DNA from: Streptococcus bovimastitidis
Lineage (GTDB): Bacteria; Bacillota; Bacilli; Lactobacillales; Streptococcaceae
Direction: 5' to 3'
Assembly: GCF_001885095.1 (NCBI RefSeq)
Contig: NZ_LZDD01000003.1
Span: forward strand, 236,978 to 300,977
Length of the DNA: 64,000 nt
The notes beneath the pieces are model-generated. The model had not been told where the DNA came from. It made no database searches and saw nothing but the letters and a program-made list of their open reading frames with translations. The translations under genes were made by a program, and so were the position numbers. Numbering within the stretch: position 1 is the first letter of the stretch; each line of letters begins with the position of its first letter. Below are positions 14,935 to 24,777 of the stretch, in pieces.

Positions 14935-15035
14935 TACCCCATTTGAAAGGCCCCGGAACCTTCCAAATACCTTCGATGGGACGGAACACCCATCAACCCT
15001 GTAAACAAATATTACGAATTCGTATAGGAGAAATC
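14935..15035 (+). promoter_or_regulatory. Likely L13 (rplM) autoregulatory leader
   Basis: The leader before rplM carries at least two small hairpins: AAGG/CCTT (14947-14950 with 14959-14962) and GATGGG (14975-14980) with CCCATC (14989-14994) around ACGGAACA. Structured leaders bound by L13 are known upstream of rplM-rpsI in Firmicutes. Assignment to that class is an inference from position and from the conserved-looking GGAACA loop. Confidence 0.5.
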
Positions 15036-15482
15036 ATGAACAAAACAACTTTTATGGCTAAAACTGGCCAAGTTGAACGCAAATGGTACGTTGTTGACGC
15101 AACAGATGTACCTCTTGGACGTCTTTCTGCAGTAGTTGCTAGCGTACTTCGCGGAAAAAACAAACCAACTTTCACACCACACACTGATACAGGTGACTTT
15201 GTAATTGTTATCAATGCTGAAAAAGTTAAATTAACTGGTAAAAAAGCAACTGATAAAATCTACTACACTCACTCAATGTACCCAGGTGGATTGAAACAAA
15301 TCTCAGCAGGTGAACTACGTTCTAAAAATGCTGTTCGTTTAATCGAAAAATCTGTTAAAGGCATGCTTCCACATAACACTCTTGGACGTGCACAAGGTAT
15401 GAAATTGAAAGTCTTCGTTGGCGGTGAGCACACTCACGCAGCACAACAACCAGAAGTACTTGACATCTCAGGACTTATCTAA
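15036..15482 (+). CDS. rplM: 50S ribosomal protein L13
   Basis: The 148 aa product is a complete L13: [25 protein letters not shown] at the start, [12 protein letters not shown], and [18 protein letters not shown] near the end. An upstream in-frame extension to 14943 lies in the structured leader and is rejected. ATAGGAG precedes ATG 15036 by 7 nt. It forms an operon with rpsI, 21 bp downstream. Confidence 0.98.
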
Positions 15483-15503
15483 GAGGAAAGGAGCACATAA
15501 ATA

Positions 15504-15896
15504 ATGGCACAAGCACAATATGCAGGAACTGGCCGTCGTAAAAACGCTGTTGCACGCGTTCGTTTACTCCCAGGAACTGGTAAAATCACAGTTAACAACA
15601 AAGATGTTGAAGAATACATCCCACACGCTGACTTACGTTTAGTCATCAACCAACCTTTCGCAGTAACATCTACTGAAGGTTCATACGACGTATTCGTAAA
15701 CGTAAACGGTGGTGGTTACGGTGGACAATCAGGAGCTATCCGTCATGGTATCGCTCGCGCATTGCTACAAGTAGACCCAGACTTCCGCGATTCATTAAAA
15801 CGCGCTGGACTTCTTACACGTGACGCACGTATGGTTGAACGTAAAAAACCAGGTCTTAAAAAAGCCCGTAAAGCATCACAATTCTCAAAACGTTAA
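15504..15896 (+). CDS. rpsI: 30S ribosomal protein S9
   Basis: The 130 aa S9 is complete: [16 protein letters not shown] at the start, [19 protein letters not shown] in the middle, and the basic tail ending in QFSKR, which reaches the decoding site. The last codons (from 15874) double as one arm of a 28-bp direct repeat found again at 16710, so the gene end serves as an insertion target while the protein is restored intact. Confidence 0.98.
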
Positions 15897-15901
15897 TATA
15901 C
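15874..15901 (+). repeat. attachment-site-like direct repeat, left copy (rpsI 3' end)
   Basis: 28 bp identical to 16710-16737, covering the last seven codons and stop of rpsI. A second block of about 38 nt (15951-15989) recurs with one indel at 16785-16822. This is the pattern left by a site-specific integration at a gene 3' end. To my knowledge, tyrosine-recombinase elements of streptococci use rpsI this way. Confidence 0.8.
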
Positions 15902-15920
15902 ACTGGTATATCAATTTTTC

Positions 15921-15956
15921 AAAGCACTCAAGGGTTTGCCCTACGGGTGCTTTTTT
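15921..15956 (+). terminator. rpsI terminator
   Basis: AAAGCAC at 15921-15927 pairs with GGTGCTTT around an inner GG/CC pair, followed by six T. Confidence 0.8.
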
Positions 15957-16183
15957 GATACATTTTTTGAGAATTTGCCCTAAAATGATACACAAAAATT
16001 TTTTGATTACGTATTCTCTAACTTTTCTTGTATATCCTATAATTTAATACAAGGATTTGTGTTTAAAATCTTCAAATACTATTTATGCAATAGTTTGACT
16101 TTAAGTAACAAATATTATATTTTTAATATGACAAAATGCCAAAATAATAAGAACAATAATAATTACTAATAAGGAGAAAAACA

Positions 16184-16684
16184 ATGGAAAATCAAGTTTC
16201 TGATGCACTGCTTAGAGCTGGCGTTGAATTAGGTGTACTAGCTGTTAAAGGTACAACAACTTTGGTAAATAGTAAAATTCAATCAATTAGAGATGAAAAG
16301 AGCGCAGAAAAGTTAAGAAATACATATGATGAAATTATAAATGAATTACTTTCAGAAAGAGAGCAAGCAATAAGAATAGCTCAAGCCTATAAAGAAGAAT
16401 ATGAAAAGGTCAATATTAATGATGAGGATATTGAATATTTACATAAAACTTTGACGCAGATGATTTCGCTGATTTCGTCTTTCACAAATGTTGATAGTGA
16501 ACAAGAAGCATCTATGACTCAGTTAGTGGAGCTCTTAAATAAAGATACATTAAAAACAATGCAGTTGCTTGGATTCAATTATAAAGAAGCAATTGGTGAA
16601 CCGCTAACTGAAGTATGTGCAACAACAATTAAATGTAAATTGAGTCCGTCACCTAAAAGGAATAATAAATCACAAAGGAAATAA
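16184..16684 (+). CDS. Unknown coiled-coil protein, sole gene of mini-island
   Basis: The 166 aa protein has an uncharged, mildly hydrophobic N terminus (DALLRAGVELGVLAVKGTTTLV), then a charged helical stretch with heptad-like spacing (about residues 35-90), and a short lysine/serine-rich tail. No signal peptide, catalytic motif or DNA-binding motif is evident. An AAGGAG ribosome binding site lies 6 nt before the ATG. It is the only gene between the two rpsI-end repeats, with base composition visibly richer in A and T than the ribosomal operon. I do not recognise it. Its position suggests cargo of a small integrated element; a defence or addiction role is possible but not shown. Confidence 0.7.
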   Translation: MENQVSDALLRAGVELGVLAVKGTTTLVNSKIQSIRDEKSAEKLRNTYDEIINELLSEREQAIRIAQAYKEEYEKVNINDEDIEYLHKTLTQMISLISSFTNVDSEQEASMTQLVELLNKDTLKTMQLLGFNYKEAIGEPLTEVCATTIKCKLSPSPKRNNKSQRK

Positions 16685-17419: not shown

Positions 17420-18118
17420 TTGGAAGAGAGTTTAATTAAATCAAAACAACGAGTTCAAAAACATGGCGAGGTCTTTACACCATCTTGGATGGTTCAAAAA
17501 ATGCTAGATACCCCTGGTGTAAAAGAGGCTTGTGAAAATGTATCGGCAACGTTCTTAGAACCATCTGCTGGTGATGGAAACTTTTTACAAGCAATATTAG
17601 AGAGAAAGTTAGAGCATGTTGTTAAAAAATATGATAAAAGAAATTGGAAAACAAAATCTTTAATAGCCTTATCCTCAATATATGGTATAGAATTTCTTGA
17701 AGATAATCTAGAGGTAGCACGTTCTCGAGTATTCCTATATTATTTAGATTGGTATGAGAAAACTTTTAACATAAAGTTAACTAGTAAAAGTGACATCTAT
17801 AAATCCGCTCATTATCTTATTCATAAAAATATTGTAAGAGGTAACACACTCTCCCAGAAACATCCTATTACAGGAGATCCGATTGTCTTTTTTGAGTGGC
17901 GATTAGTGAAAGGTCATCATAGTTTTGTCAAAAAAATTCCATTTACTTTGTCTGAACTTCTAGGTGATACTGTTGAAAATGATAAAGGAGTTGTTGAAGG
18001 GCAAATGAGTTTCTTTGATATGGATGATGAATTTAGATTAGAGGAAGAGATTGTAGAAAAAACTAAAGTGGTAGAAGAAATAAATATTCAAAAGGTGTAT
18101 TTATTAGGAGATTTATAA
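17420..18118 (+). CDS. N6-adenine methyltransferase-like protein lacking catalytic motif
   Basis: The 232 aa protein starts with TTG at 17420, set by AAGGAG 6 nt upstream. An N-terminal HGEVFTPSWMVQKML stretch, typical of adenine DNA methyltransferases, leads to a clear SAM-binding motif I, FLEPSAGDGNF (residues 45-55), then a motif II-like IYGIEFLE and a motif III-like IVRGNTL. Where the catalytic (N/D/S)PP(Y/F) should follow, the sequence reads GDPIVFFEW, so the active-site tetrapeptide is missing. The very large downstream protein, which begins 1 bp after this stop, carries an NPPY motif but only a degenerate motif I. The two products may therefore act as one complementary enzyme, which is inferred and not shown. 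Confidence 0.8.
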   Translation: MEESLIKSKQRVQKHGEVFTPSWMVQKMLDTPGVKEACENVSATFLEPSAGDGNFLQAILERKLEHVVKKYDKRNWKTKSLIALSSIYGIEFLEDNLEVARSRVFLYYLDWYEKTFNIKLTSKSDIYKSAHYLIHKNIVRGNTLSQKHPITGDPIVFFEWRLVKGHHSFVKKIPFTLSELLGDTVENDKGVVEGQMSFFDMDDEFRLEEEIVEKTKVVEEINIQKVYLLGDL

Positions 18119-18119
18119 A

Positions 18120-21100
18120 ATGATTTCAAATTTTGAGTTTTTGACAATTGACATTGATACGGCAGAGCTTTTCAGAACAATAAATATGGCCGAAGAAAAT
18201 TATACTCACGGCGATTACGAAGGGACATTGATTAAGGTAAGAAAAGTAGCTGAAAATACAGCACGATTAATTGCTGATAGAGAGTATATAGATGTTCAAG
18301 AACGTACAACATTTAACGATATCCTTAAAGAAATAAGATACTTAATTTCTAATAAAACAATTGTGGATAATTTCTATGAAATTAAAGGTAAAGGAAATAG
18401 CTCTGCTCATGTCCTAAATCCAGAGAATGCTACAAAAGAAAACGCATTGAAATCTTTGGAGCAATTATTTGATATATTAGCATGGGTGATGCTGACTTAT
18501 ATTGATCCTGAAATTAAAAAAAGTGCAATTGGTCAGTTTTTAGAACCGAGAGCACAAGAAATGTATACAACGGCAGAGCGTAAATTCATCTATGTTCAAA
18601 CGGTAAATAATGAGAGTGGGTTATTTAGTGCATTTGAAGGAACACAAAAAATCGGGGAAGGAACGGTTTCCTCAGACGATATTGAGACAGATTGGTCTCC
18701 AAATAGTGACTTTTTAAGAAGGGTTGCTCCGAAGCGAATCAATCAATATATGAAAACATCTGGATTACCATATACCCTTGGGTGGGTAGAACTTGCTTAT
18801 AAAAAAGCAACAAAAACATGGTTTCATGATTATGACGTTCATAATGTTTTAAAACGATCAGGTATTGAACAGGCAAAACATTTGGAAGGAAATGAGTGGT
18901 ATAATACCGATATAGAAACTGCAAAGGCAGCAATAAAAGCTGTGAAAAATGGTATTAATTATCTTAATGATTCACAAAGGGTAACGATAGTAGAAGAATC
19001 GACCATTAATCTTCGACCGGAGCAAGATGAAGCTGTCAAACAGACGCAAAATGTATTTAAGAAAAAAGATAGGATGCTTTGGAATGCAAAAATGCGTTTT
19101 GGAAAAACATTAACCTCTCTGCAATTAGTCAAAAATGAAAAGTTTCAAAAGGTCTTAATAATGACACATAGACCGGTTGTAGCTGATTCATGGTTTGATG
19201 ATTTTAAAAAGATGAGTATGAACAAAGCTGGGTATAATTTTGGTTCTGTAAATAAAGGAGAAACTCTTGAAAATTTAAAGAAATCAAGGAAACCATTTAT
19301 TTACTTTGCCTCGATACAACTGCTGAGATACAATAATGGACAAACAAATCTTAAGGAATTTTCTGATATTGATTGGGATTTAATAATTATTGATGAAGCT
19401 CATGAAGGTACTCAAACTGAACTCAGCGATACTGTGATGAAAGAGCTTGTAAAAACCAAGACTAAGATACTAGAATTATCAGGGACACCCTTCAATCTTT
19501 TAGATCAATTTGACGATGAACAAGTTTACACTTGGGATTACGTTATGGAACAAACTGCGAAGAAAAAATGGGAACTTGAACGTCCTAATGAACCGAACCC
19601 TTATGAAACTTTACCAAAAGTATCCATGTATACTTTTGAAATGAAAAACAAAAATCGTTTTACAGATGAAAGTAAATCGTTCAACTTTAGGGAATTCTTC
19701 CGTGTGGGTGAAGATGGAAAACTTGTTCATAAGCATGATGTTCGACAATTTTTAGATAATATTACTAATCCTGATAGTAGTACTAACTATCCCTTTTCAA
19801 CGAAATCTTATAGAGATGAATTACGTCATACACTTTGGCTCATGCCAGGCGTCAAGGAAGCAAATGCATTTGAAGATTTACTTAAAGAACACCCAGTATT
19901 TGGTATGGATTACAAGATTGTTAATGTTGTAAAAGGTTCAAGTTCAGATGACGGTATCACAAATGAGGCGGATATTGAAAAAGTTAGAACAGCCATAACA
20001 AAAGACCCGTCACAAACAAAAACAATTACTTTGACTGTTCGTAAATTAACGACAGGTGTCAATATTCCCGAGTGGACCGCAGTTTTATTTCTTTCCAATA
20101 CAAATAGTGCAATGAATTATCTCCAAGCTGCTTTTCGTGCTCAAACTCCATTTTCACACGAAAAATTAGGAATGAAAACAAACTGCTATGTTTTTGACTT
20201 TGCTCCGGATAGAGCATTGACTGTTATGGCAGAAAGTGCCCAAATCAATTCAGGAGTAGGTAAGAAGAATACTCAAGAGCAAAAACAAGCCATGGCACGG
20301 CTTCTCAATTTTATGCCAATATTAGGCTCTACAGATAATGGTATGAAAACTTTTGATGTAGACAGAATGCTTACACAACTCAAAAAAGTGTATGCTGAAA
20401 AAGCTGTTCGATCTGGGTTTGAAGATGACAGTCTCTATAATGACAATCTTCTTACATTGACCGCTGAAGATGCGACAATGTTTAGCAAACTTAATACAAT
20501 TGTTGGAAAGTCACAAAATCAAAAAGCACCTAAAAAAGTTGTCGTTAATGATAATGGCTTTACCGATGAAGAGTATGAACAAGCCGAAAAAGCAAAGAAA
20601 AAACCTAAGGACAAACGGACACCAGAAGAGCTTGAAGCTATAGAAAAACAAAAAGAAGCCAAAAAACAACGTAAAAGCATGATTTCTATATTACGTGGAG
20701 TTTCTATCCGTATTCCAATGATGATTTACGGGATGGCAGTTGATTTATCAAAAGATATCACAATTCAAGAATTTATCCAACAAGTGGATGATGAGTCTTG
20801 GAAAGAATTTATGCCAAAAGGGTTTACCAAGGGGATGTTTAGTGACATCACAAAATATTATGATGCAGAAGTATTTATTGAAGCAGGACGTATCATTCGT
20901 CAAAGAGCAAAATCTTTTGATGATATGGATTTTATTGAAAGGGCAGAAAACATTGCTGCGCTGTTTAGTACCTTTAAAAATCCTGACAAAGAAACAGTAC
21001 TGACACCGTGGCGTGTTGTGAATCTTCAGGTCACGAAATCTGTCGGTGGATTGAACTTTTATGATGATAACTTTGAATCTGTGACAGACGGTGCGACGTC

Positions 21101-22484
21101 AAATCTTCATTGGGTGGAAAATGAGGTAACACCTTTAATCTATCAAAAAGAGACGAAAATCTTAGAAATCAATTCGAAGACTGGACTTTATCCACTTCAT
21201 AGTGCCATCAGTCTGTATTATCAAAGGGTTGCACAAAATGATGATAATCATTTTGAAGCTGACCAAGTCTATCAAGAAATTTTGGAAAACAATATCTACG
21301 CCATTGCGAAAACCCCTATGGCTAAAACCATTACTGAACGTACCCTGACAGGATATCGGAATTATAAGACAAATATTATCCATATTGATGATTTGACAGA
21401 TACACTAAAAACAGATCTAAAAAAAGGCAAAATGTTAGTAGAGGAGGCATTTAATAACGTGAAATTTGATGTTGTCATTGGTAATCCTCCATATCAAAAT
21501 GAGGGTTCAGGTGATGTAGCTCGTGATGAACCAATCTATCATAAATTTATGGATTTAGCTTACGAAGTTGCAGATAAAGCGGTCTTGATTACGCCGGCTC
21601 GCTTTCTTTTTAATGCTGGACAAACCCCGAAATCATGGAATAAGAAGATGTTAGAAGATACTCATCTCAAAGTAATTTATTTTGCACAGAAATCGGAAGA
21701 AGTGTTTCCAAATACAGACATCAAAGGTGGGGTTGTAGTTACATACCGAGACTCTATGCGAAATTTCGGGGCTATTGAGACATTTACACCGATTGAATGG
21801 TTAAATGACTTGTTCCATTTAATTCGTAATAAGGAAAAGAGATCATTTAATGAATATCTTTTCGGACGGAGCAGTTATAAACTTACTAAATTAGTTTACG
21901 AAGAGCATCCGGAATTAAAAGGTAGGATTAAACAAAGTGAAGAAAAGTCAATTGGTTCAAATATTTTTGACAAGTTACCTGAAATTTTTATAGATAGACC
22001 TTTAAATTCAGAATATATTCGTATTTTCGGTAGACAAAATAATGAACGTGTATATAAATGGATTAAGAAATCTTATGTTCAAGAACATGAAAACTTGAAC
22101 AAATACAAGGTCTTTCTTCCGAAGTCAAACGGAAGTGGGGCGATAGGTGAAGTATTATCGACCCCACTCGTGGGTACCCCACTCGTGGGTCACACACAAA
22201 CTTTTATTTCATTTGGGGCTTTTGACACTGAAATAGAAGCAGAAAACTGCTTGAAGTTTATTAAAACTGATATTGCTCGTGCTATGTTAGGTACATTAAA
22301 AATAACTCAGGATAATGCTACTAAAGAAGTTTGGGGGAATGTTCCGTGGTTTGATTTTAATGATTACTCAAAAATTGACTGGTCAAAAACAGTAGAAGAT
22401 ATTGAAAGACAACTTTATGATTATTTTAGTTTACCAGACTACATAATTGCTGAATTAAAAGCTAATGTAAGAAGGATGGACTAA
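18120..22484 (+). CDS. GIY-YIG nuclease / SF2 helicase / Eco57I-type methylase fusion
   Basis: The 1454 aa protein appears to hold: a DUF4145-like N-terminal domain (about 1-125); a T5orf172/GIY-YIG-like nuclease region (about 150-275, FIYVQTV, QKIGEGTV, a conserved Arg region RVAPKRINQYMK and NEWYNTD with the likely catalytic Glu); and an SF2 helicase with MRFGKT (325-330), DEAH (425-428), SGTPFN and a C-terminal LQAAFRAQ. After a charged linker comes a methylase part with LEINSKTGLYP as a possible degenerate motif I and FDVVIGNPPY (NPPY 1122-1125), then a presumed target-recognition region. The family is that of Eco57I-methylase-containing restriction enzymes. It is expressed with the upstream methyltransferase-like gene. 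A 15-bp tandem repeat lies at 22161-22190 in the presumed recognition region. Expected action: translocation-dependent restriction of unmodified DNA. Confidence 0.85.
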   Translation: MISNFEFLTIDIDTAELFRTINMAEENYTHGDYEGTLIKVRKVAENTARLIADREYIDVQERTTFNDILKEIRYLISNKTIVDNFYEIKGKGNSSAHVLNPENATKENALKSLEQLFDILAWVMLTYIDPEIKKSAIGQFLEPRAQEMYTTAERKFIYVQTVNNESGLFSAFEGTQKIGEGTVSSDDIETDWSPNSDFLRRVAPKRINQYMKTSGLPYTLGWVELAYKKATKTWFHDYDVHNVLKRSGIEQAKHLEGNEWYNTDIETAKAAIKAVKNGINYLNDSQRVTIVEESTINLRPEQDEAVKQTQNVFKKKDRMLWNAKMRFGKTLTSLQLVKNEKFQKVLIMTHRPVVADSWFDDFKKMSMNKAGYNFGSVNKGETLENLKKSRKPFIYFASIQLLRYNNGQTNLKEFSDIDWDLIIIDEAHEGTQTELSDTVMKELVKTKTKILELSGTPFNLLDQFDDEQVYTWDYVMEQTAKKKWELERPNEPNPYETLPKVSMYTFEMKNKNRFTDESKSFNFREFFRVGEDGKLVHKHDVRQFLDNITNPDSSTNYPFSTKSYRDELRHTLWLMPGVKEANAFEDLLKEHPVFGMDYKIVNVVKGSSSDDGITNEADIEKVRTAITKDPSQTKTITLTVRKLTTGVNIPEWTAVLFLSNTNSAMNYLQAAFRAQTPFSHEKLGMKTNCYVFDFAPDRALTVMAESAQINSGVGKKNTQEQKQAMARLLNFMPILGSTDNGMKTFDVDRMLTQLKKVYAEKAVRSGFEDDSLYNDNLLTLTAEDATMFSKLNTIVGKSQNQKAPKKVVVNDNGFTDEEYEQAEKAKKKPKDKRTPEELEAIEKQKEAKKQRKSMISILRGVSIRIPMMIYGMAVDLSKDITIQEFIQQVDDESWKEFMPKGFTKGMFSDITKYYDAEVFIEAGRIIRQRAKSFDDMDFIERAENIAALFSTFKNPDKETVLTPWRVVNLQVTKSVGGLNFYDDNFESVTDGATSNLHWVENEVTPLIYQKETKILEINSKTGLYPLHSAISLYYQRVAQNDDNHFEADQVYQEILENNIYAIAKTPMAKTITERTLTGYRNYKTNIIHIDDLTDTLKTDLKKGKMLVEEAFNNVKFDVVIGNPPYQNEGSGDVARDEPIYHKFMDLAYEVADKAVLITPARFLFNAGQTPKSWNKKMLEDTHLKVIYFAQKSEEVFPNTDIKGGVVVTYRDSMRNFGAIETFTPIEWLNDLFHLIRNKEKRSFNEYLFGRSSYKLTKLVYEEHPELKGRIKQSEEKSIGSNIFDKLPEIFIDRPLNSEYIRIFGRQNNERVYKWIKKSYVQEHENLNKYKVFLPKSNGSGAIGEVLSTPLVGTPLVGHTQTFISFGAFDTEIEAENCLKFIKTDIARAMLGTLKITQDNATKEVWGNVPWFDFNDYSKIDWSKTVEDIERQLYDYFSLPDYIIAELKANVRRMD

Positions 22485-22662: not shown

Positions 22663-23931
22663 GTGGATATATTTTATTTAGTGCACAATTTTAAGGTTAT
22701 TGCAATTAATACTGAAGAAATTGATAGCTATAAACAATTAAGAAATATAAAAAATCAGGAAGAATTAAATACTAAGTTCGAAGAATTAGGTTTAGAAATT
22801 GAAGATGGTATAATCGAAGAAATTCAAGAAATTTTCGGTTTGGATAACACAGATGATGGAAATAGGAATGAAGAATTTAGAATCAAGCATTGGGTGAGTA
22901 ATAGATCATTTGGTGAACTAGTTGATATGTATAAACATGGAGAGATAAAAACTCCAGAAATGCAAAGGAAATTTGTGTGGAATTCTGTTAAAAGTTCTAG
23001 ATTAATTGAATCTATTATTTTGGGATTACCAATTCCTCCATTGTTTCTTTTGGAAGTTGATGATAATGAATATGAGATTATTGATGGGTATCAGCGATTA
23101 ACTACTCTTCATAATTTTATTGAAGGGTTACCTTGGGTTGGGTATAAAGAAGGAAAAAGAAAAGTTACTTCCCGATTGTCTAGAAAAAATATATTAAAAG
23201 ATATAGAAGGTAAGTGTTTTGATGAACTTTCTATTGATCATCAAACAAAATTAAGAAGAAGTACAATTCCTCTGGTAGAGTTTAAACAGTTAAGTCCAGG
23301 AGATTTTAGTTCAAAATATTTAATTTTTGAAAGAATAAACACTGGTTCTGAAAAGTTAAATGGAATGCAAATTCGAAAATCTCTTGCATATGGTCCATTT
23401 ATGGAAAATCTTTATGATGCGGCAAATTCAAATGATAATTATCTAAGCCTTTTCTCAACAACACAGATAAAAAAGGATATCCATGTTGAAGCCCTACTTC
23501 GAATTCTTGCTGTATCTGATTTAAATTTTGGAAGATTCTCTCCGAAAAGATATGGAATAAAAAATATTTTAGATGAATATGGTGAACTCTATCGTAATAC
23601 AGAGATAAGTCAAGATAGATTGAAAGCAATTTTTTCATATATTGAACAATTTGTTGATTTGTTTCAAAAAAATCATGTATTTAAGAGAGTTAATTCAGAA
23701 GGAGAGTTTGAAGGCATTATTAATATAGGGATATTGGAATCGTTAGTTGGAAGTTTTGTTGAAAGTAATAAAGTAATTCCGGATAAATTTATTGATATTT
23801 ATAAAAAAGAACTGACGAAACTATGGGATTCTTATGTTCTTGAGGAACAAGAAAATCCATTTTCTACAAATACTGGTAGTTTAGAGTCTATTCAAAAAAG
23901 ATATGAAATCTTTAAGTCCATGATAGGATAA
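22663..23931 (+). CDS. DUF262 (GmrS-like, ParB/sulfiredoxin fold) protein
   Basis: The 422 aa protein starts with GTG at 22663 behind GGGGGA. It has the DUF262 landmarks FGELVDMYKHGEIKTPEMQR, then RKFVW, GLPIPPLFLLE and IIDGYQRLTTL (D141-R145), where most members have DGQQR. This fold hydrolyses nucleotides in the GmrSD type IV restriction enzyme, which cuts glucosylated hydroxymethylcytosine DNA. The C-terminal HNH domain (DUF1524) that does the cutting in GmrD is not visible. A HEPN gene begins 3 bp after the stop and may supply the nuclease. An N-terminal extension of about 70 acidic residues precedes the domain. Confidence 0.85.
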   Translation: MDIFYLVHNFKVIAINTEEIDSYKQLRNIKNQEELNTKFEELGLEIEDGIIEEIQEIFGLDNTDDGNRNEEFRIKHWVSNRSFGELVDMYKHGEIKTPEMQRKFVWNSVKSSRLIESIILGLPIPPLFLLEVDDNEYEIIDGYQRLTTLHNFIEGLPWVGYKEGKRKVTSRLSRKNILKDIEGKCFDELSIDHQTKLRRSTIPLVEFKQLSPGDFSSKYLIFERINTGSEKLNGMQIRKSLAYGPFMENLYDAANSNDNYLSLFSTTQIKKDIHVEALLRILAVSDLNFGRFSPKRYGIKNILDEYGELYRNTEISQDRLKAIFSYIEQFVDLFQKNHVFKRVNSEGEFEGIINIGILESLVGSFVESNKVIPDKFIDIYKKELTKLWDSYVLEEQENPFSTNTGSLESIQKRYEIFKSMIG

Positions 23932-23934
23932 AGT

Positions 23935-24777
23935 ATGGATATTGAATTTTTTAATGAAAGATTTTCAAAAATTGAAGAATCTGTTAAACTGATAGATATT
24001 ATGGAGGATAGTATATCAAATGGTTCGGGTCCTCACAGAGAATTAGCGATTAAAATAGGTATTCCATATAGGGATCTACGTAGTATCTATAAAGCACAAG
24101 AACTGAAATTACTTGTCGACTATTATACTTTTTGTGAGCAACTAATGAAGCATTTTATTTATTCTGTATTGGATGTTCATGCTATAGATAGAAATATTCA
24201 TAGAAAGAAGTACTTAAATGATAATTTAAATCCTAGTACTTTTTCTCCAAGAGTAAAATATAAGGAGATAGAAGATAATCTTAATAAATACTTATATACT
24301 TCGCCAAGAAAGATAAAATTACTTTCGTTTTGTATTGAATCAGACATACGACATAAGCATGATGAATTAATATTAGCACGCCATACTTATGCGCATAAAG
24401 GAGAGGAACCTACATTTAGTATATTAGGTTATGTGAAATCAAATTTAGCACTTTTAAAGTATTTTTTGAATGATTTTCAAAATATAGAAGTAGACCTTTC
24501 AAATAGACTAGAATTACAGGAAGCAATAATACAAATACTTGAAGAACAAAAAAAATTGCAAAAACTTGATCTACGTAACAAAAATTGGAAAGAAAGGTTT
24601 GATAATCTAAGAAAAGTTGCTTCGGACACTCAAATGTTACTAAGTAAACTTGAAATAAATTCTGAAACTTATTTTTACTTAGAGTCACAGTTACGAGAAT
24701 TTCAAAAAATTGATTTACGACGGAGTTTGAGTAAAAACAAAGAAATTATTAGTATTATTAGTTTAGAGTCTTCGTGA
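23935..24777 (+). CDS. HEPN-domain protein, partner of DUF262
   Basis: The 280 aa, largely helical protein contains R-x4-H (R149, H154) in the segment LARHTYAHKGEE, the catalytic signature of HEPN ribonucleases. The layout resembles the MAE_28990/MAE_18760 group, whose genes often accompany DUF262 genes (from memory of that family, not searched). The C-terminal part (about 190-245) is a charged, probable coiled coil. It begins 3 bp after the DUF262 stop, so the two are translationally coupled. A role as an abortive-infection RNase is inferred from the family. Confidence 0.72.
   Translation: MDIEFFNERFSKIEESVKLIDIMEDSISNGSGPHRELAIKIGIPYRDLRSIYKAQELKLLVDYYTFCEQLMKHFIYSVLDVHAIDRNIHRKKYLNDNLNPSTFSPRVKYKEIEDNLNKYLYTSPRKIKLLSFCIESDIRHKHDELILARHTYAHKGEEPTFSILGYVKSNLALLKYFLNDFQNIEVDLSNRLELQEAIIQILEEQKKLQKLDLRNKNWKERFDNLRKVASDTQMLLSKLEINSETYFYLESQLREFQKIDLRRSLSKNKEIISIISLESS

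Follow-up and report, generated by a model that had tools for sequence, protein, structure and literature searches.

Two adjoining genes of Streptococcus bovimastitidis probably encode a restriction-modification system in which an adenine methyltransferase is split between two proteins. They lie one base apart on the same strand of contig NZ_LZDD01000003.1, in the 64,000-nucleotide stretch analysed here (the window; contig positions 236,978 to 300,977), and encode S (232 residues) and B (1454 residues). S is an S-adenosylmethionine (SAM)-binding half-methyltransferase, while B comprises a nuclease-helicase (R), a degenerate SAM half (D) and a final half (N) that extends from the NPPY motif to the C terminus and includes the target recognition domain (TRD). 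The predicted fold of a natural S-N fusion makes it likely that S and N together compose the writer of the mark, and we give even chances to the proposal that D and the same N form a reader. As far as the sequences go, the modules are complementary, shuffled between chains and, for N, exchanged as a cassette.

A search with B across 299 genomes of the same phylum identified a 591-residue protein in which an initial portion shares 46% identity with S and a second portion 51% with B residues 1115–1454. The neighbour of this fusion is a nuclease-helicase that lacks NPPY and has a degenerate SAM half at its end. Because the parts occur on different chains in relatives, we treated S, D, N and R (GIY-YIG nuclease plus helicase) as four modules. 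Scanning named genomes with R gave 78 loci, from which L026–L082 were kept by profile and 21 (L083–L103) set aside because they were too distant; adding the window and 27 loci of other genomes brought the scored set to 85 loci. All four modules are present in 69 of these, 60 of them unbroken. Each unbroken locus has one N module and adopts one of five arrangements (slashes separate genes, hyphens join modules in one chain): S / R-D-N (19), R-D-N / S (1), S / D-N / R (22, some with genes cut by a contig end), S-N / R-D (13) and S / R-D / N (5). The other nine four-module loci show a disrupted frame or an additional piece, such as the second S fragment of 106 codons in L077. Most of the 16 partial loci run into a contig end; in L078, S and N are fused and R is truncated, and L052 and L188, described below, also count among the partial loci.

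Hosts come from Bacillota, Bacteroidota, Actinomycetota, Cyanobacteriota, Chloroflexota and Planctomycetota, among other groups, and the nearest named relatives of B are found in S. suis and other streptococci. The initial annotation had described the locus as unlike classical restriction systems; its architecture does stand apart, but it is no isolated oddity, being part of a widespread family whose pieces PADLOC-DB and plasmid annotation already list under ordinary methyltransferases or type IIG enzymes. On a quick tree of R (66 rows, with a flagged long-branch join), the five arrangements require six changes; the N tree is likewise a quick one and contains long rows. The R-D-N fusion probably arose more than once, since the R-D-N of L038 nests in the S-N / R-D group.

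The two genes go together in Streptococcus. Among 197 genomes searched with both S and B, all 17 with an R-D-N matching B at an E-value of 0 carry S adjacent, although B is broken in two frames in one of them (G407), and G384 has a more distant R-D-N with an S2-type module (described below) beside it (L185). Two of these genomes have S without R-D-N, arranged as S / R-D / N, and in one further case S without R-D-N is a fragment. S is also present in all of the first 15 plasmid matches to B listed (Lactococcus, Enterococcus, Vagococcus, Latilactobacillus and Leuconostoc). Several Enterococcus plasmids (NZ_MT874923.1, NC_014508.2 and kin) have an IS110 transposase inside the matched stretch of B. 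A natural S-D-N fusion was found neither among five full-length S matches (398 genomes of the phylum) nor among 120 listed relatives. A lone 114-residue S fragment, 75% identical to S, lies at G350:C1:228000-238000 (L188) with R, D and N not found nearby; its genome has an S-N / R-D system elsewhere (L178). Viral contigs searched with B alone contained no relative, and the 16 matches in phage records are partial, none covering more than 80% of B. Fusobacterium phage FNU4 (OQ808964.1) and Tenacibaculum phage PTm1 (AP019524.1) each encode a half resembling N (35.0% and 29.7% identity), which may belong to a phage methyltransferase with a related recognition half.

The motifs of S and B are complementary. 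In addition to motif I, S contains motif X (HGEVFTP, residue 15), motif II (IYGIEF, residue 87) and a stretch resembling motif III, whereas NPPY is absent from its whole translation; the degenerate motif I of B stands 107 residues before NPPY. Open reading frames and motif positions bear out the initial annotation on this division and on the single base between the genes. It had also named structural models with a full active site of its own in each of the two proteins as what would refute a shared enzyme: by sequence, S has no NPPY and D no canonical motif I. Motif I is present in 38 of 38 S1 modules and the corresponding motif of the S2 variant (E-x-x-CGE-A/G-P) in 32 of 32, with NPPY in none of either group (0/38 and 0/32). 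Canonical GxG is found in 0 of 74 D modules, 71 of which read K-S/T-G followed by V/L/I/M and F/Y; of the rest, two read STAG and one (L185) KSGE. NPPY is kept in 72 of 73 N modules, the exception being NPAY in the broken frame of L046. In a 45-row D-N alignment (A5; the window, nine B proteins and 35 of 37 listed loci), the T-P of motif X, the loop lysine and glycine, and NPPY are invariant. The complementarity is not a chance feature of the window, because the pattern is kept across the family. D and S1 are homologous by hhalign (probability 96.9), as are S1 and S2 (99.2).

Two further features mark particular groups. The S2-type loci (e.g. L026–L030, L032–L037, L039, L043 and L048) share a conserved extended loop, CGEAPYLVSRYD...TGE...R-G-LDRKLR, after the motif I position. 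D modules of the three-gene form (L050:1449-1991, L022:4029-4589 and L054:8329-8886) carry C-x-F/Y-C-G before the NPPY half in 3 of 3 rows, a motif absent from the D of the window.

The N half behaves as an exchangeable cassette. In the ten pairs that contrast most among 118 B relatives, identity is 99–100% in the helicase and 98–100% in D, with only 43–44% in the TRD. Across the 3956 pairs with helicase identity above 92%, the TRD falls below 60% in 2348 and exceeds 90% in 1174. Three relatives (P0111, P0119 and P0120) are 80% identical to the window in the helicase and 90% in the TRD. At the DNA level, L181 and L183 share a 6.2-kb stretch of 92.9% identity that starts ahead of S and stops near residue 1126, which is the codon after NPPY if no indel precedes it; past this point, only two inverted matches (41 and 26 bases) are found until 95.6% identity resumes downstream of the gene. 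The best change point in 49 thinned pairs of B relatives falls at residues 1120–1130 in 26, at 1050–1100 in 11 and at 1180–1250 in 12, making NPPY the commonest breakpoint and not the sole one. We then correlated identity matrices for 15 of the 17 Streptococcus loci with both genes. S, R and D co-vary (S-R 0.87, S-D 0.71, R-D 0.71; p 0.0005), and N follows none of them (S-N 0.07, R-N 0.10, D-N 0.21; p 0.28, 0.22 and 0.11), D included, to which it is covalently joined. Judged by these comparisons, S, R and D evolve together across the 15 loci, and N evolves apart and is replaced as a cassette.

Structure prediction is consistent with N completing either SAM half. AlphaFold2 models a natural S-N fusion (P0338) as a complete adenine methyltransferase (predicted local distance difference test score, pLDDT, 88; predicted template modelling score, pTM, 0.82), in which motifs X, I, II, III, NPPY and the TRD follow one another in a single predicted fold, the order of gamma-class N6-adenine methyltransferases. 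Pfam MmeI_Mtase spans S into N in this protein at 25.2 bits, just under its cut-off of 27, and is the only Pfam family touching the S of the window, also sub-threshold. The D-N of the window is likewise predicted as a complete enzyme-like fold (pLDDT 89, pTM 0.84), and the structural matches to each of the two models include MmeI and DrdV. Direct sequence matching to solved structures returned nothing for B and two weak, chance-level matches for S, and profiles of alignments A4 and A5 gave nothing at E 0.01.

R is likely active as a nuclease-helicase. Across 66 R rows, almost no variation is seen in Walker A, DE-x-H, SGTPF and Q-x-x-F-R-x-Q, or in the nuclease residues Y158, K177 and R206 (64 rows each, with two gaps) and E259 (63), with H241 in 56; it is from this conservation that we take R to be likely active. 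The catalytic tyrosine, arginine and glutamate of a GIY-YIG nuclease would be Y158, R206 and E259, roles we assume by analogy with GIY-YIG restriction enzymes. The initial annotation had listed DEAH helicase, DUF4145-like and GIY-YIG-like regions in B. Pfam scores ResIII (also ResIII/DEAD), in line with the helicase, and Eco57I above cut-off in B, and a plasmid protein annotated DUF4145 matches residues 1–116; Pfam calls no GIY-YIG domain in the B of the window, and this assignment comes from the aligned region of L043, where T5orf172 exceeds its cut-off, and from residue conservation. Residues 3–151 also resemble the HsdR-family N terminus (NCBIfam NF008521, E 8e-24), at 83.7 bits against a cut-off of 729.

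Together, these results suggest how the system may operate. S would supply the SAM-binding half, and N the catalytic NPPY and the target recognition domain, so that S and N, as in the predicted fold of the natural fusion, would methylate host sites. In D, the lysine may plug or replace the SAM site. D and N would then act as a SAM-less reader that recognises the same site, leaves it unmethylated and passes unmodified DNA to the nuclease-helicase, where R would cut. Because writer and reader would share one N, a swap of this cassette would change both specificities together, and specificity would follow the exchanged N. More tentatively, N may alternate between partners, S writing the mark and the lysine-bearing D reading the site and licensing cutting; fusions would tether N to either one, and recombination at the catalytic motif would renew both specificities.

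Could B act as a methyltransferase by itself, with the K-S/T-G loop giving D an unusual mode of SAM binding and S serving as an accessory or regulator? The predicted completeness of D-N within one chain is in keeping with this, and the invariance of the loop lysine and glycine in 45 rows implies that the loop is under selection. We nevertheless regard it as unlikely, as D has lost the acidic residue of motif II (AIAKT, GLAPT, GIAIT), no full S module scored lacks the SAM motif, and where the arrangement is S-N / R-D, N shares a chain with S while D ends R without NPPY. The initial annotation had posed a composite methyltransferase and a sensor as alternatives. Relatives in which S is fused to the NPPY/TRD half, a single predicted enzyme, favour the composite; the either/or does not hold up as well, since the degenerate SAM half of B is also predicted to fold with N, which makes a writer and a sensor sharing N likelier. 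That S is solely a SAM-bound sensor or allosteric subunit, in a system that does not methylate and restricts by another cue, would fit the joining of N to D in the window, but is improbable given that natural fusions place S at the SAM-half position of a methyltransferase, with the MmeI_Mtase match running from S into N. An ordinary type IIG enzyme beside an orphan methyltransferase fragment is what the PADLOC-DB labels imply, each piece having a model that names it as a whole enzyme (R-D-N, REase_MTase_IIG, PDLC03626; S2, MTase_II, PDLC03390; stand-alone N, MTase_II, PDLC03375). This reading is very hard to reconcile with the 17 of 17 linkage, the presence of S on either flank across lineages, the S-N fusions and the lack of a canonical motif I in every D module.

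Several observations weigh against a split enzyme with a shared N. L052 has D-N and R, with no S found in the 3.5 kb upstream. The STAG-type D modules (L041 and L045) lack the lysine, and the NPPY breakpoint accounts for 26 of the 49 pairs and not all. An intimate S-N interface might predict some co-variation, and the value is 0.07; as a test of pairing, the 15 Streptococcus loci give no signal either way. The S:N fold was modelled in the natural fusion only. AlphaFold2 completes the fold for S-N and D-N alike, so it cannot tell which pair forms in the system of the window, and, S and D being homologous, either fold may be easy to obtain.

The coordinates of both genes and their parts are collected in Table 1. 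S begins at a TTG codon preceded by AAGGAG, and the end of the helicase, at about residue 780, was set by comparison with relatives. Upstream, at 14943-16684, lie what we take to be the ribosomal protein genes rplM and rpsI and a small open reading frame; as the S/B system lies downstream of rpsI, this gene may border a variable defence spot. On the other side, 22663-23931 encodes a GmrSD N-terminal (DUF262-type) protein matching PADLOC NsnA (E 1.3e-52), followed at 23935-24777 by a 280-residue protein with no family match above cut-off, a pair that is perhaps a second defence module.

Table 1 Features of the S and B genes in window coordinates
Feature	Positions	Strand	Basis
S, SAM-binding half-methyltransferase, 232 residues; motifs X, I, II, III, no NPPY	17420..18118	+	Open reading frame translation, motif positions
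Motif I of S, FLEPSAGDGNF, residue 45	17552..17584	+	Motif positions
B, R-D-N protein, 1454 residues; GIY-YIG nuclease, superfamily 2 (SF2) helicase, degenerate SAM half, NPPY and TRD half	18120..22484	+	
N-terminal HsdR-like (DUF4145-like) region of B, residues 3-151	18126..18572	+	NCBIfam NF008521, below cut-off
GIY-YIG (T5orf172-like) nuclease region of B; putative catalytic Y158, K177, R206, H241, E259	18588..18902	+	Column counts, relative L043
SF2 helicase/translocase of B; Walker A 320-330, DEAH 425-428, SGTPF 454-458, QAAFRAQ 669-675	19005..20459	+	ResIII stretch 296-458, motif conservation
D, degenerate SAM half of B, residues 960-1112; motif X LTP kept, motif II AIAKTPMA	20997..21455	+	
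K-S/T-G loop replacing GxG in motif I of D; LEINSKTGLYP, residues 1015-1025	21162..21194	+	
N, residues 1113-1454; NPPY, strands beta-4 to beta-7, TRD; exchangeable cassette	21456..22481	+	
NPPYQ of N; NPPY at 21483-21494 (residues 1122-1125, within KFDVVIGNPPYQ, 1115-1126)	21483..21497	+	

If the split is real, a widespread family whose members currently pass for separate, seemingly complete methyltransferases and type IIG enzymes would be one split-adenine-methyltransferase system, and the assignment of methylome motifs to genes would have to consider S, D, N and R jointly. The system would also be a naturally occurring case of a single cassette that determines writing and cutting alike, answering how matched specificities co-evolve, and would offer a route to study a methyltransferase fold built from interchangeable halves.

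To our knowledge, the natural split methyltransferases are C5 enzymes. In M.AquI and M.EcoHK31I, two genes supply one C5-methyltransferase domain, AquI being split in the variable region and the small subunit of EcoHK31I providing motif IX only; both act on cytosine-5, unlike the adenine enzyme proposed here, and the available sections of that account mention no second degenerate half or nuclease-helicase (PMC3404938). In the portions of the open-licence literature searched, no description of the split proposed here was found. Among 27 S. thermophilus genomes, 11 type II m6A motifs are reported, and a cloned type II system (motif CAGRAG), which may or may not be of the S/B family, is reported to restrict phage (PMC11514479).

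The S/B system shares features with three classes of restriction enzyme. Type I systems have separate HsdM, HsdS and HsdR subunits and an exchangeable specificity module, and their M subunit holds both the SAM motif and NPPY. Separate subunits, an exchangeable module and the HsdR-like N terminus of B (below cut-off) recall this plan, whereas in the window SAM motif and NPPY are divided between S and B, and what is exchanged is no separate specificity subunit but a module containing one catalytic half, with the strands that follow NPPY. Type ISP enzymes are single polypeptides with an Mrr-like nuclease, helicase, coupler, gamma-methyltransferase and TRD, LlaGI being one chain; compared with LlaGI and LlaBIII, the nuclease region here is GIY-YIG-like, the SAM half is a separate gene product and an additional degenerate SAM half is present. 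Type IIG enzymes unite restriction and modification parts in one chain. The R-D-N protein resembles this class (MmeI, DrdV, BpuSI) in its match to REase_MTase_IIG, and differs from it in possessing an SF2 helicase and, with its SAM half encoded apart, no canonical SAM motif. By analogy, the action of the S/B system would resemble that of a type ISP or IIG enzyme in which the target recognition domain is shared, yet the system falls outside the one-chain definition of either.
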